A stretch of DNA of 64,000 nucleotides from Cycloclasticus sp. 46_120_T64 (GTDB taxonomy: Bacteria; Pseudomonadota; Gammaproteobacteria; Methylococcales; Cycloclasticaceae): the NCBI GenBank assembly GCA_002162695.1, contig MAAM01000005.1, positions 186,001 to 250,000 of the forward strand, given 5' to 3'. Position numbers and translations under genes: made by a program. Of this stretch, positions 49,935 through 53,393 are shown piece by piece. Numbering within the stretch: the stretch's first letter is position 1; each line of letters starts with the position of its first letter. The notes under the pieces were generated by a model that was not told where the DNA came from, ran no database searches, and worked only from the letters and a program-made list of their open reading frames with translations.

Positions 49935-50600
49935 GTGAAAAAAATCACCTTCGCCCTCTGCATGCTCATATGCAGCTCCAGCATCGCCCAAACCGCTTAT
50001 GTCTCCGACGAGCTTGAAATCATGGTTCGCTCAGGAAAAAGCGCTAGCCACCGTATTATTGCCACCTTGAAGAGCGGAAAACGAATCACTGTACTTGAGC
50101 AAGATCAAGCTTCCGGTTATTCGAAAATCGCCTTAAGTGCAACCAAAAATGGCTGGGTACTGAGCCGATTACTGCGCAACACACCCTCGGCAAAATCTCG
50201 CCTCAATAAAGCCGAAAAAACACTCGCCGCGCTGAAAACAAAATTCAGCGCCTCCAGTGAACAGCTCAACCTACTGGGTAAACAGAAAAGCGGCTTAGAC
50301 AGCGAAACCAGCGAACTCAAAAAATCCAACAGCGAGTTATCTCGTGAATTGAGTGAGCTGCAAAAGGTATCTAGCAATGCGGTAGAAATCTTAGGCGAAC
50401 GCAATCAGTTACAGCAGCGAGTCGTGAGTATTGAACGCGAATTTGAAAGCCTCAAAAGAGAAACCGATACGTTGAAAAACAGCGAGGCTTTAGATTGGTT
50501 TTTAGCCGGCTCTGGGGTGTTATTATTTGGCATTTTCCTTGGTTTTATTCTACCCAAACTATCTTGGCGTAAAAAATCCTCATGGAACTCATCATTTTAG
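49935..50600 (+). CDS. SH3-domain membrane protein, YgiM/TIGR04211 type
   Basis: The 221 residues have a Sec signal peptide (ending SSIAQ), a bacterial SH3 domain (about 22-85; YVSDELEIMVRSGKSASHRI), a long coiled coil (about 90-190) and one C-terminal membrane helix (about 195-213) with a basic end. The family is inner-membrane anchored with the SH3 part in the periplasm and has no settled function. It starts with GTG after AAAGGA. It interrupts the arg genes argF and argE, probably a chance neighbour. Confidence 0.85.
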   Translation: MKKITFALCMLICSSSIAQTAYVSDELEIMVRSGKSASHRIIATLKSGKRITVLEQDQASGYSKIALSATKNGWVLSRLLRNTPSAKSRLNKAEKTLAALKTKFSASSEQLNLLGKQKSGLDSETSELKKSNSELSRELSELQKVSSNAVEILGERNQLQQRVVSIEREFESLKRETDTLKNSEALDWFLAGSGVLLFGIFLGFILPKLSWRKKSSWNSSF

Positions 50601-50609
50601 TTTGCCACC

Positions 50610-51773
50610 TTGATTAAGTCCTTAACCCGCCTAGAGATGATGCGTGCCTTAATTGGCACCCCGTCGGTCAGTAGCACTAATCGTCAGCACGACCAAAGTA
50701 ATTTACCGGTTATTAATTTACTGGCGGAGTGGTTAGGAAACCTAGGTTTTCAGGTTTCCATCCAGCCACTAGCAGAACAAAATGGCAAGGCCAACTTAAT
50801 CGCCACCATCGGCCCGCAACACAAAGGCGCCAACGGCTTGGTGCTGTCAGGGCACACCGACACCGTGCCATATGACGATAGCCGGTGGCAACAAGACCCC
50901 TTCAAACTGACCGAACGCGACAACAAGTTCTACGGCCTAGGCAGCACCGACATGAAGTCATTTTTTGCCTTAGCCATTGATACGGCGGCAAAATTCAAAA
51001 CCAGCGACTTTAAACGCCCGCTAACCATCCTCGCAACCGCCGATGAAGAAAGCGCGATGAGCGGCGCCCAATCGCTCAGCCGCGAACAACTACAGCACGC
51101 CCAATACGCGATCATCGGTGAACCAACCAATTTAACGCCCGTTCGTATGCATAAAGGGGTGATGATGGAATCGCTGATCGTCACTGGCCACGCTGGTCAC
51201 TCTAGCAACCCCAGCCTGGGCGCTAGCGCAACCGAGGGCATGCACCAGATTATCAACGAACTATTGAGCTGGCGGGAAGAACTACAGGCACGGCATCAAC
51301 ACCCGTCATTTGAAGTATCCTCACCGACCCTGAACATTGGCTCCATTCACGGCGGCGACAACCCCAATCGAATTTGCTCACACTGTGAAACCCAAATAGA
51401 TATCCGCCCACTACCCGGCATGGATATCGATTATTTGCGCGCCGACTTACAACAGCGTCTGTTCAAGGTACTGCCCGATGACGGTAAACTCAAACTCGCC
51501 TATCGACCGATATTTTGCGGTGTACCACCATTCGAAACCCCTGCTGACGCGGGTTTCACCCGCTTAGTCGAATCAATCAGCGGCAAACCTGCCGAGGCGG
51601 TTGCCTTTGGCACCGAAGCACCTTACTTAAACAAACTAGGTTTAGACACCATCGTCATCGGCCCAGGCAGTATCGACCAAGCCCACCAAGCCAATGAATT
51701 CATCCCCGGCGAACAAATAGAACCCTACTGTCACTTCCTGCACCGCCTGATCCAGCACATTTGCATAAATTAA
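50610..51773 (+). CDS. argE: Acetylornithine deacetylase
   Basis: M20 metallopeptidase-fold enzyme releasing ornithine from N-acetylornithine. The metal/catalytic segments are LSGHTDTVP, GLGSTDMKSF, ATADEESAM and GEPTNL; the dimerisation lid domain lies at about residues 180-290. 387 residues, normal. The TTG at 50610 fits the family N-terminus; the in-frame ATG at 50637 would drop nine residues. No strong ribosome site for either. Confidence 0.93.
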   Translation: MIKSLTRLEMMRALIGTPSVSSTNRQHDQSNLPVINLLAEWLGNLGFQVSIQPLAEQNGKANLIATIGPQHKGANGLVLSGHTDTVPYDDSRWQQDPFKLTERDNKFYGLGSTDMKSFFALAIDTAAKFKTSDFKRPLTILATADEESAMSGAQSLSREQLQHAQYAIIGEPTNLTPVRMHKGVMMESLIVTGHAGHSSNPSLGASATEGMHQIINELLSWREELQARHQHPSFEVSSPTLNIGSIHGGDNPNRICSHCETQIDIRPLPGMDIDYLRADLQQRLFKVLPDDGKLKLAYRPIFCGVPPFETPADAGFTRLVESISGKPAEAVAFGTEAPYLNKLGLDTIVIGPGSIDQAHQANEFIPGEQIEPYCHFLHRLIQHICIN

Positions 51774-51779
51774 GCCCTT

Positions 51780-51820
51780 AACGCAAAGAAACGCAAGTAA
51801 TACCATCTCTTTGCGTTTTT
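51780..51820 (+). terminator. Terminator-like hairpin between argE and argA
   Basis: A perfect 10-bp stem AACGCAAAGA/TCTTTGCGTT (51780-51789, 51808-51817) with an 18-nt loop ends in a T-run. It could end argE transcription or act as a regulatory leader for argA, which starts 26 nt later. Confidence 0.6.
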
Positions 51821-51845
51821 CGCAAGAAACCACTAAGATAGACCC

Positions 51846-53393
51846 ATGTCAAACGATGCCAAATTTATTATCGAGCAATTTGGTGGGATCAAAGCCCTCG
51901 CCAAGGCAATCAACAAAGACCCAGCCACTATTTACCGCTGGACCTATGCAAAACACAAAGGCGGCACCGGCGGGCTCATCCCGACCTCGGCTAACAATAG
52001 AATCTGCGAGGCTGCTCGCCGACTCAATATCGATATTCAGCCCCCCGCAGTCAAACAAGCACAAACCACCCCCGCCTCAATCCAAGCCAAGCAGTTTATT
52101 CATTGGTTTAGAAGCACCGCACCCTATATCCATGCCCATCGCGGCAAAACATTTGTTATTAATATCAGCGGCGAAGCGGTCGAAGACGAGCTTTTTGCCA
52201 GTCTAATTGAAGACTTTGCGCTGCTCAACAGCCTCGGAATCCGCCTGATTCTCGTTCACGGCATTCGCCCTCAACTAGAAAAAAAACTGAGCAACAACCA
52301 TCGTTCAAGCCGAGTATTCCAGCACCTCAGAGTCACCGACAAAAACACCCTGGAATTAGCCAAAGAAGCGACCGGAACCGTGCGTACCAATATCGAAGCG
52401 CAATTATCAATCAGCCTCGCTAACACGCCGATGGCCGGTGCTAGCATTCGTGTAACCTCGGGTAACTTCATTGTCGCCAAGCCATTAGGTATCATCGATG
52501 GCGTTGATTATCAATTTACCGGTGAAGTGCGCCGCGTTGACGCCGAAGCCATCGCAAGCTGTCTTGATTCCGAGCAGATTATCCTCATCTCACCCTTGGG
52601 TTATTCACCCACCGGCGAAGTATTCAACCTGCGCAGTGAAGAAATCGCTACCGCTATTGCCACCGCGATCACCGCCGACAAACTGATCTTATTAACCGAA
52701 CGAACCGAGTTACTCAGTGAGGATCAGCAGCTTATTGGCCAATTAACCACCGAGCAAGCACAGGTGATCCTTGATGCCAATGAAGACAAACTCGATGACG
52801 CCTATCTACACTTAGAAGAGGCCATTCGCGCGAGCAAATTAGGCGTACCACGCATCCACCTCATTAACCGTAAAATAAATGGCGGCCTACAACTCGAACT
52901 TTTCACCCGACAAGGCTCTGGAACACTCATCAGCATCCAACCCTTCGACGATGCAAGACCCGCAACCATTAACGATATCCACGGTATTATTGAGTTAATA
53001 CGCCCATTAGAGCAACGCGGCTTACTCAGCTACCGCGCCACCGAAACCCTCGAAATGGATATTAATAAATTCCATGTGATCGAGCAAGATGGCCTCATCA
53101 CCACTTGCGCCGCCCTGTATGAATACCCTGATGATAATATCGGTGAACTAGCGTGTGTCGCCGTGCACCCTCGTTACCGCAATGGTGAGCGCGGCGAACA
53201 CCTGTTAAACATGATGGAAAATAAGGCGCGGGAAAACGGACTAAAACGCTTATTCGTCCTGACTACACAAAGTAGCCATTGGTTTGCAGAAAAAGGCTTC
53301 AAAGCCGCCGAACTCACCGATTTACCCGCAGAGAAACAACGCCGTTACAATCAAACTCGACGCTCCAGCGTGCTGATAAAGTTACTGGATTAA
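51846..53393 (+). CDS. argA: N-acetylglutamate synthase with extra N-terminal helix-turn-helix-like domain
   Basis: ArgA acetylates glutamate, the first step of arginine synthesis. The core (about residue 82 onwards) has the amino-acid-kinase domain (AHRGKTFVINISGEAVE, SGNFIVAKPLG) and a GNAT domain (VAVHPRYRNGERGEHLL, LTTQSSHWFAEKGF), as in the 443-residue E. coli enzyme. Ahead of it are about 75 extra residues with an HTH-like pattern: FGGIKALAKAINKDPATIYRW, then GLIPTSANNRICEAARRL, similar to phage-type YdaS/'carph-isopro' DNA-binding modules. A Pro/Ala/Gln linker joins the two. No ATG, GTG or TTG codon exists at the normal ArgA start, so the fusion seems to be translated as one protein. 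Its role (DNA binding, regulation) is an inference. Confidence 0.9.
   Translation: MSNDAKFIIEQFGGIKALAKAINKDPATIYRWTYAKHKGGTGGLIPTSANNRICEAARRLNIDIQPPAVKQAQTTPASIQAKQFIHWFRSTAPYIHAHRGKTFVINISGEAVEDELFASLIEDFALLNSLGIRLILVHGIRPQLEKKLSNNHRSSRVFQHLRVTDKNTLELAKEATGTVRTNIEAQLSISLANTPMAGASIRVTSGNFIVAKPLGIIDGVDYQFTGEVRRVDAEAIASCLDSEQIILISPLGYSPTGEVFNLRSEEIATAIATAITADKLILLTERTELLSEDQQLIGQLTTEQAQVILDANEDKLDDAYLHLEEAIRASKLGVPRIHLINRKINGGLQLELFTRQGSGTLISIQPFDDARPATINDIHGIIELIRPLEQRGLLSYRATETLEMDINKFHVIEQDGLITTCAALYEYPDDNIGELACVAVHPRYRNGERGEHLLNMMENKARENGLKRLFVLTTQSSHWFAEKGFKAAELTDLPAEKQRRYNQTRRSSVLIKLLD

Follow-up and report, generated by a model that had tools for sequence, protein, structure and literature searches.

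A phage Cro-like helix-turn-helix domain fused to the N-acetylglutamate synthase of Cycloclasticus, with a predicted operator at the argA promoter

In the window, that is, the whole 64,000-nucleotide stretch of Cycloclasticus DNA that was analysed, argA follows a frame that from pathway knowledge is presumed to be argE (Table 1). The earlier note had described an in-frame N-terminal extension on an ArgA core beginning at about residue 82, and the description holds: ArgA models cover residues 80/84 to 513 (NF003641, 611 bits against a cut-off of 344; TIGR01890, 545 bits against 203), and they are preceded by a 66-residue helix-turn-helix (HTH) domain and a variable linker, so that the frame encodes an extension followed by a complete ArgA. 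The structure of the Neisseria gonorrhoeae N-acetylglutamate synthase (NAGS), 2r8v, aligns with residues 83-512 (E 2.5e-86), and the amino-acid-kinase (AAK) and GNAT domains are present over the full length with scores above curated cut-offs, as in bacteria-type N-acetylglutamate synthases. The arginine site of NAGS has been described as the motif E-(L/I)-(F/M)-(T/S)-x-x-G-x-G-T with a key Lys and Glu (PMC4490483); ELFTxxGxGT, Lys279 and Glu351 are kept in all 16 fusion proteins of the genus. By each sequence feature tested, the protein is ArgA.

Table 1. Features of the argE-argA region in positions of the window
Feature	Position	Strand	Support or remarks
argE (presumed), gene upstream of argA	50610..51773	+	ORF
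Degenerate counterpart of the possible second site, CTGTCACTTCCTGCAC, inside the argE end	51728..51743	.	6/10 positions fit
Proposed operator, TTGCGTTTTTCGCAA (TTGCG-N5-CGCAA)	51811..51825	.	16/16 fusion loci; exact in 0/15 non-fusion loci
Candidate argA promoter	51811..51839	+	-35 TTGCGT 51811-51816, 17-base spacer, -10 TAAGAT 51834-51839; ends 6 bases before ATG
Fusion ORF (HTH + ArgA)	51846-53393	+	ATG start, 515 aa
Phage Cro/YdaS-like HTH domain, ArgA residues 1-66 (predicted)	51846..52043	+	NF046037 match, AlphaFold2 model, nearest folds
Variable linker, residues 67-81	52044..52088	+	Identity 0.15 over 16 fusions; low pLDDT
N-terminal helix region of ArgA core, residues 82-100	52089..52145	+	ArgA model matches begin; identity 0.83
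Amino-acid-kinase (AAK) domain, residues 101-363	52146..52934	+	PF00696 1.4e-26 at 101-341; aligned to 2r8v
Arginine-site motif ELFTRQGSGT, residues 351-360	52896..52925	+	Fits the motif described in PMC4490483
GNAT N-acetyltransferase domain, residues ~368-513	52947..53384	+	PF00583 9.8e-9; PF13508 8.4e-8; 3e0k match 369-511

The extension appears to be translated with the enzyme. No start codon lies in frame near 52076-52110, as the earlier note had stated, because the first 90 codons of the frame contain no ATG, GTG or TTG other than codon 1. Initiation inside the core, which would leave the HTH out of the mature enzyme, would resemble the arrangement in 12 non-fusion frames, in which the FRxxAPYI core follows the nearest in-frame start by 9-22 codons; it is nevertheless hardly credible, given the lack of any other start in the first 90 codons of the window frame, a frame that is open at all 16 fusion loci, and in-frame starts that share no position among the other 15. 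A chance open frame was also considered and was ruled out, the domain being conserved, scored by profiles and folded in the model.

Residues 8-64 match the NCBIfam model NF046037, 'carph-isopro' (E 1.8e-9 for the segment alone), with 37.7 bits for the segment and 31.7 for the whole protein against a curated cut-off of 38; the fusion of a second genome (G017) scores 36.1 bits, or 38.6 together with its neighbours in the frame. The Pfam models P22_Cro (E 5e-5, 23.4 bits, gathering cut-off 30.2) and YdaS_toxin (E 1e-3, 19.2 bits, gathering cut-off 30) also match the segment below their cut-offs. On these scores the domain is a relative of the Cro, YdaS and carph-isopro families that falls below their cut-offs, and it is not filed as a member. 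The name 'carph-isopro' was not found in the literature searched. Relatives of the domain in named phages are annotated as Cro-like; the one in Paracoccus phage vB_PbeS_Pben1 (L139) has a CI-like repressor as its neighbour, and the one in phiLM21 a prophage repressor.

Structure prediction of the N-terminal segment (residues 1-66), a check that had been proposed for this locus, returned an HTH fold. The AlphaFold2 model of the HTH alone, built on an alignment with 12 viral-contig relatives and a single homologue from Cycloclasticus (L031), has a mean pLDDT of 93.1 and helices at 5-12, 15-22, 26-31 and 47-60. A structural aligner used for a second look placed Cro proteins in its top four rows, namely P22 Cro (Z 6.8 over 52 residues, rmsd 2.2), N15 Cro twice (Z 6.6) and Xfaso 1 Cro (Z 6.5), followed by Aca1 (Z 5.3); the Z scores of the Cro matches, all below 8, would not alone settle the fold. 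The first seven rows of a Foldseek search against the PDB were likewise Cro proteins, including an engineered hybrid, with a weak best E of 0.045 and nothing below 0.001, and the HTH profile found no significant match to the PDB by sequence (best E 0.44). Among the nearest folds is 6on0, a Cro structure solved with operator DNA. The predicted structure has the HTH fold of phage Cro-like repressors, and the assignment of the extension to the YdaS/carph-isopro type in the earlier note is thus supported by profile matches below curated cut-offs, by the model and by the match to the Cro fold. The full-length AlphaFold2 model (14 rows) gave a poor enzyme part, with a mean pLDDT of 59.5, and therefore no domain arrangement is claimed.

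The family Cycloclasticaceae was represented by 18 genomes, all of the genus Cycloclasticus, and the full HTH-ArgA fusion is found in 16 of them, the other 15 proteins being 61-76% identical to that of the window. One of the two remaining genomes (G015) holds only residues 1-48 of the fusion, at the end of a 5,254-base contig, and the other (G010, 83% complete) gave no ArgA match. ArgA matches were obtained for 294 of the 311 genomes of the order; among those listed, which extend to E 8.6e-143, the rows from outside the genus start at query residue 41 at the earliest. Thirteen ArgA loci from outside the genus with early-starting matches or long frames (12 fetched rows and L038) were checked: the HTH models find nothing in the 12 that show the core pattern, and in the thirteenth (L163), whose core is a variant lying some 38 residues into the frame, no HTH is apparent by eye. 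A class sample of 369 genomes searched with NF046037 gave no further ArgA fusion beyond two genus members among the frames fetched; seven long frames in that set were, by eye, ParB-like, transposase-like, peptidase-type or methylase-type rather than ArgA, and those left out include two of more than 950 codons (G443, G456) and one of 313 (G484). In a phylum sample (398 genomes, HTH profile) there were three matches, two in short frames, with the fusion in this genome only. The survey of ArgA proteins that had been called for thus found the extension in 16 of 18 Cycloclasticus genomes and saw it in none of the other order genomes listed. The distribution suggests one fusion event that was then retained across the genus; the 16 fusion genomes do not count as 16 independent events, because the fusion arose once as far as seen.

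Conservation within the fusion is uneven. Mean pairwise identity over the 16 proteins is 0.80 for HTH residues 8-46 and 0.67 for residues 1-66, falls to 0.15 in the linker (residues 67-81), and is 0.83 for residues 82-100, 0.71 for the AAK domain and 0.74 for the GNAT domain. Median pN/pS is 0.31 in HTH residues 1-66, 0.82 in the linker, 0.22 in the AAK domain with the N-terminal helix and 0.21 in the GNAT domain. Invariant columns make up 27 of the 66 in the HTH, including PAT and YRWTY at or just after helix 3. Judged by these rates, the HTH is under purifying selection and is kept as a working part while the linker drifts; conservation of its core is close to that of the enzyme domains, unlike that of the linker.

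An inverted repeat, TTGCR-N5-YGCAA, lies upstream of argA at all 16 fusion loci, exact at 14 and with one mismatch at two. Thirteen of the exact copies have a spacer of 5 and one (L016) a spacer of 6, and all 16 fit 9-10 of 10 positions; counted base by base over the 15 spacer-5 loci, with L016 left out, 7 of the 10 arm positions are invariant. The repeat is placed between the promoter hexamers of argA, and its left arm forms most of the -35 hexamer in the window, so that part of the conservation of this arm is possibly explained by its coincidence with the hexamer. The repeat begins at -27 in L012 and L013, as against about -35 elsewhere. The promoter was picked by our own script, and the promoter scan did not report it. 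Between the chosen -10 hexamer and the ATG the gap is exactly 6 bases at 8 of the 16 loci and 5-8 at 12, and because it is so short the argA message may be leaderless; leaderless messages have been described for cI and paaR2 (PMC8630535). A conserved inverted repeat that overlaps the promoter of its own gene is the arrangement of Cro-like regulators, and the repeat is accordingly termed a predicted operator. A short out-of-frame ORF (51811-52206) overlaps it. At 51782-51796, upstream of the predicted operator, the window has two further CGCAA half-sites 10 bases apart; this pair is not seen at the other 15 fusion loci, although two additional TTGCG, 9 bases apart, are present in L012 and in L013.

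The site appears to be particular to the argA promoter of the genus. Exact copies with spacers of 4-7 are absent from the 300 bases upstream of ArgA at all 15 non-fusion loci, where the best fit within 100 bases upstream is 6-8 of 10. In 14 of the 18 genus genomes the argA promoter carries the pattern TTGCRTTWWWYGCAA; all 18 combined have it at seven other places, and its reversed control gives eight forward matches. Of the seven other places five are inside genes, one (L079) is just before a likely start and one (L088) is outside the listed frames. The L079 site (G009:C3:243753) is a strict operator-like site that precedes a small gene resembling, by eye, a ring-hydroxylating dioxygenase beta subunit. 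A looser pattern has 17 sites in this genome, a number not above that of the reversed control (14); 16 are inside open frames, and only the argA site is outside evident genes. There is no sign of a wider regulon in the form of exact sites outside evident genes elsewhere in this genome. Strict sites occur somewhere in 159 of the 311 genomes of the order, and a comparison by eye of those listed with the listed argA places showed none close to argA in genomes of other genera.

A second inverted repeat, TTGCA-N6-YGCAA, is intact in the end of argE at 10 of the 16 fusion loci (L004, L007-L014 and L016), and the window holds a degenerate counterpart. Measured over 14 loci, with intact and non-intact sites counted together and L011 and L017 left out, the distance to the main operator is 73-74 or 82-86 bases, approximately 7 or 8 helical turns. 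The leucine codon within it ends in TG in 14 of 14 rows, or 14 of 15 if L015, which has TTA, is included. This bias is matched by 2 of 30 conserved leucine columns, and for codon bias the cysteine column of the site ranks first of five and the tyrosine column first of four, in a comparison that ignores the relatedness of the genomes and leaves L015 out of the codon columns. The second site is a lead only. The argE frame of L015 (G017) stops early, with the conserved C-terminal part read in another frame, through a frameshift or a sequencing error. At the truncated locus of G015 (L158) an intact operator stands before the HTH-argA start, but the upstream frame resembles ilvD by eye, not argE; a rearrangement or a misassembled bin are the suggested alternatives. 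Between argF and argE of the arginine gene cluster, the window (49935-50600) encodes a protein with, by eye, an SH3-like start and a C-terminal membrane segment.

An independent set of promoters was provided by standalone relatives of the HTH, which were drawn from viral contigs, phage and plasmid records and the class search. The 39 candidate loci were reduced to 28 non-redundant ones by dropping five without a model match and one with less than 100 bases upstream and by merging near-identical loci; of the later viral-contig scans, the second yielded no new contig and the third one more. All 1024 five-base half-sites with spacers of 0-12 were scanned in the 200 bases upstream of each relative. 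The top repeat was TTGCG-N5-CGCAA, at 4 of 28 loci and tied with TGCGA-N3 on the same axis, against a maximum of 3 that was reached once in 100 shuffles. With four-base half-sites, TGCG-N5-CGCA was found at 6 of 28, tied with GCGA-N3 at largely the same sites, against 4 or fewer in 60 shuffles. There are 6 copies of the longer form in 5,600 upstream bp and 7 in 78,559 other bp of the same loci (p 1e-4), and 10 and 9 copies, respectively, of the shorter form (p 9e-8), with p from a simple binomial that takes no account of relatedness. In five of the six relatives that have the repeat, it falls between the two hexamers (-35 and -10) of the best promoter-like pair, a position of the same kind as in argA. 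Neither form is found upstream of the other 22 relatives. Three loci (L092, L097, L139) have pairs of operator-like sites 34 bases apart, some 0.75-1.3 kb upstream of the cro-like gene, which suggests that these too are operators, probably a second operator region of these phages.

The occurrence of the same spacing in two separate promoter sets, those of the argA fusions and those of the standalone relatives, is the strongest evidence for the predicted operator. TTGCG-N5-CGCAA is proposed as the recognition sequence for a branch of phage Cro-like proteins. The repeats of the ydaS region of prophage CP-933P are described with another consensus, GTTTAGTAA (PMC8630535), and because of this difference the wider Cro/YdaS-like family would have no one common site. 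The suggestion in the earlier note that ArgA might regulate its own operon fares accordingly: the conserved repeat at the argA promoter and its enrichment before standalone relatives speak for control of argA, whereas control of argD finds no counterpart, no site being present near that gene in the window even when one mismatch is allowed.

Taken together, these observations make it quite probable that Cycloclasticus ArgA is an enzyme-regulator fusion, in which the Cro-type domain binds the promoter repeat and ArgA represses its own gene. The HTH, carried through a flexible linker on the N-terminal helix of N-acetylglutamate synthase, would bind TTGCG-N5-CGCAA, presumably as a pair, and on the argA promoter it would block RNA polymerase; repression is implied because the repeat sits between the promoter hexamers. 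A precedent is YdaS, the Cro analogue of a prophage, for which a footprint and repression have been described at its own promoter and the opposing one (PMC8630535). Arginine may modulate the binding. Bacteria-type NAGS is described as a hexamer in which arginine, bound close to the N-terminal helix, displaces that helix and the ring widens by ~10 A (PMC4490483), and such modulation is plausible because the helix that moves is the one that bears the HTH; with the HTH hanging on this helix through about 15 variable residues, arginine could change HTH pairing.

The alternative in which the HTH binds the operator and regulates argA with no effect of arginine, as a concentration-dependent autoregulatory loop like that of phage Cro, has a real though minority chance of being correct. 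The domain occurs in phages as a stand-alone Cro-like protein, and tight mechanical coupling is not obvious because the 15-residue linker is poorly conserved; on the other hand, the HTH is attached to an N-terminal helix described as arginine-responsive (PMC4490483), and the residues of the arginine site are kept in 16 of 16 fusions. It is distinctly unlikely that the repeat serves a different regulator, or mainly forms part of the promoter, with the HTH as a relic or an aid to oligomerisation. The operator role is predicted from sequence, one arm of the repeat coincides with the -35 hexamer and most of the standalone relatives lack the repeat, all of which would suit such an explanation, but the enrichment of the same repeat with the same spacer upstream of standalone HTH relatives, the invariant HTH columns and the low HTH pN/pS weigh against it. 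Contact of the HTH with an RNA or protein partner instead of DNA, an option that had been raised for this locus, is now less likely and has very little probability left, since the nearest folds are Cro proteins, one of them solved with operator DNA, and since the operator evidence is found at the argA promoter itself.

The enzyme-regulator reading can be extended to an origin and a geometry, at present tentatively and with considerable doubt: a phage immunity repressor, perhaps with its operator, would have been captured before argA in a Cycloclasticus ancestor, making ArgA an arginine-gated repressor whose hexamer possibly spans two operators. Arginine would move the N-terminal helices of the hexamer and so set the spacing of the paired HTHs; one hexamer could hold both the promoter operator and the second site in the argE end, 73-86 bp upstream; and feedback inhibition and gene repression would share one arginine site in one protein. 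The arginine repressor itself was sought in the genus. PF01316 was found in none of the 18 genus genomes and PF02863 in none of 41 (18 of the genus and 23 non-genus relatives), in searches that do match in control genomes. The non-genus relatives searched seem to lack ArgR too, and because the 23 are also without PF02863 the fusion is not a simple replacement of an ArgR lost in the genus.

If the proposal is true, the first committed, allosterically inhibited biosynthetic enzyme is paired with a phage repressor domain, and an allosteric signal that already exists in the enzyme gains a second output by the added domain; the target is predicted in enough detail to be put to a simple gel shift. 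A literature search that covered listings and the starts of abstracts, with few subscription papers, brought up no paper describing N-acetylglutamate synthase with a DNA-binding domain, and the HTH-ArgA architecture may stand unremarked in annotation databases. The architecture and predicted operator fit a trigger enzyme, or enzyme-transcription factor fusion, and gene-regulating enzymes with an added DNA-binding domain are few. The DNA-binding domain of PutA, the proline dehydrogenase of Escherichia coli, is of the ribbon-helix-helix type, and that of BirA is a winged HTH. Five trigger enzymes have been named in E. coli (PMC8249747), and PutA resembles the present case in its added DNA-binding domain and in repressing the gene that encodes it from one intergenic target (PMC8249747); it differs in enzyme and pathway, and regulation by proline is reported for PutA whereas a ligand effect on the ArgA fusion is inferred. 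BirA and the group II biotin protein ligases also have an N-terminal DNA-binding domain on an enzyme and regulate pathway genes (PMC4016012), but BirA has multiple targets (PMC8249747) and its domain is not of the Cro type. ArgR exerts arginine-responsive control of arginine genes (PMC6245113), a response that the fusion may share, but it is not an enzyme, has a winged HTH and another operator, and its domains were not found in the 18 genus genomes. The N. gonorrhoeae NAGS 2r8v shares the aligned enzyme region and the arginine-site motif, but the aligned structure is without a DNA-binding domain. YdaS and the Cro proteins of P22, N15 and Xfaso 1 are alike in domain family and fold, and the autoregulation described for YdaS at promoter-overlapping repeats (PMC8630535) is paralleled by that predicted for ArgA; the ydaS repeats differ, and these regulators are free-standing small proteins, whereas in Cycloclasticus the HTH is fused to an enzyme.
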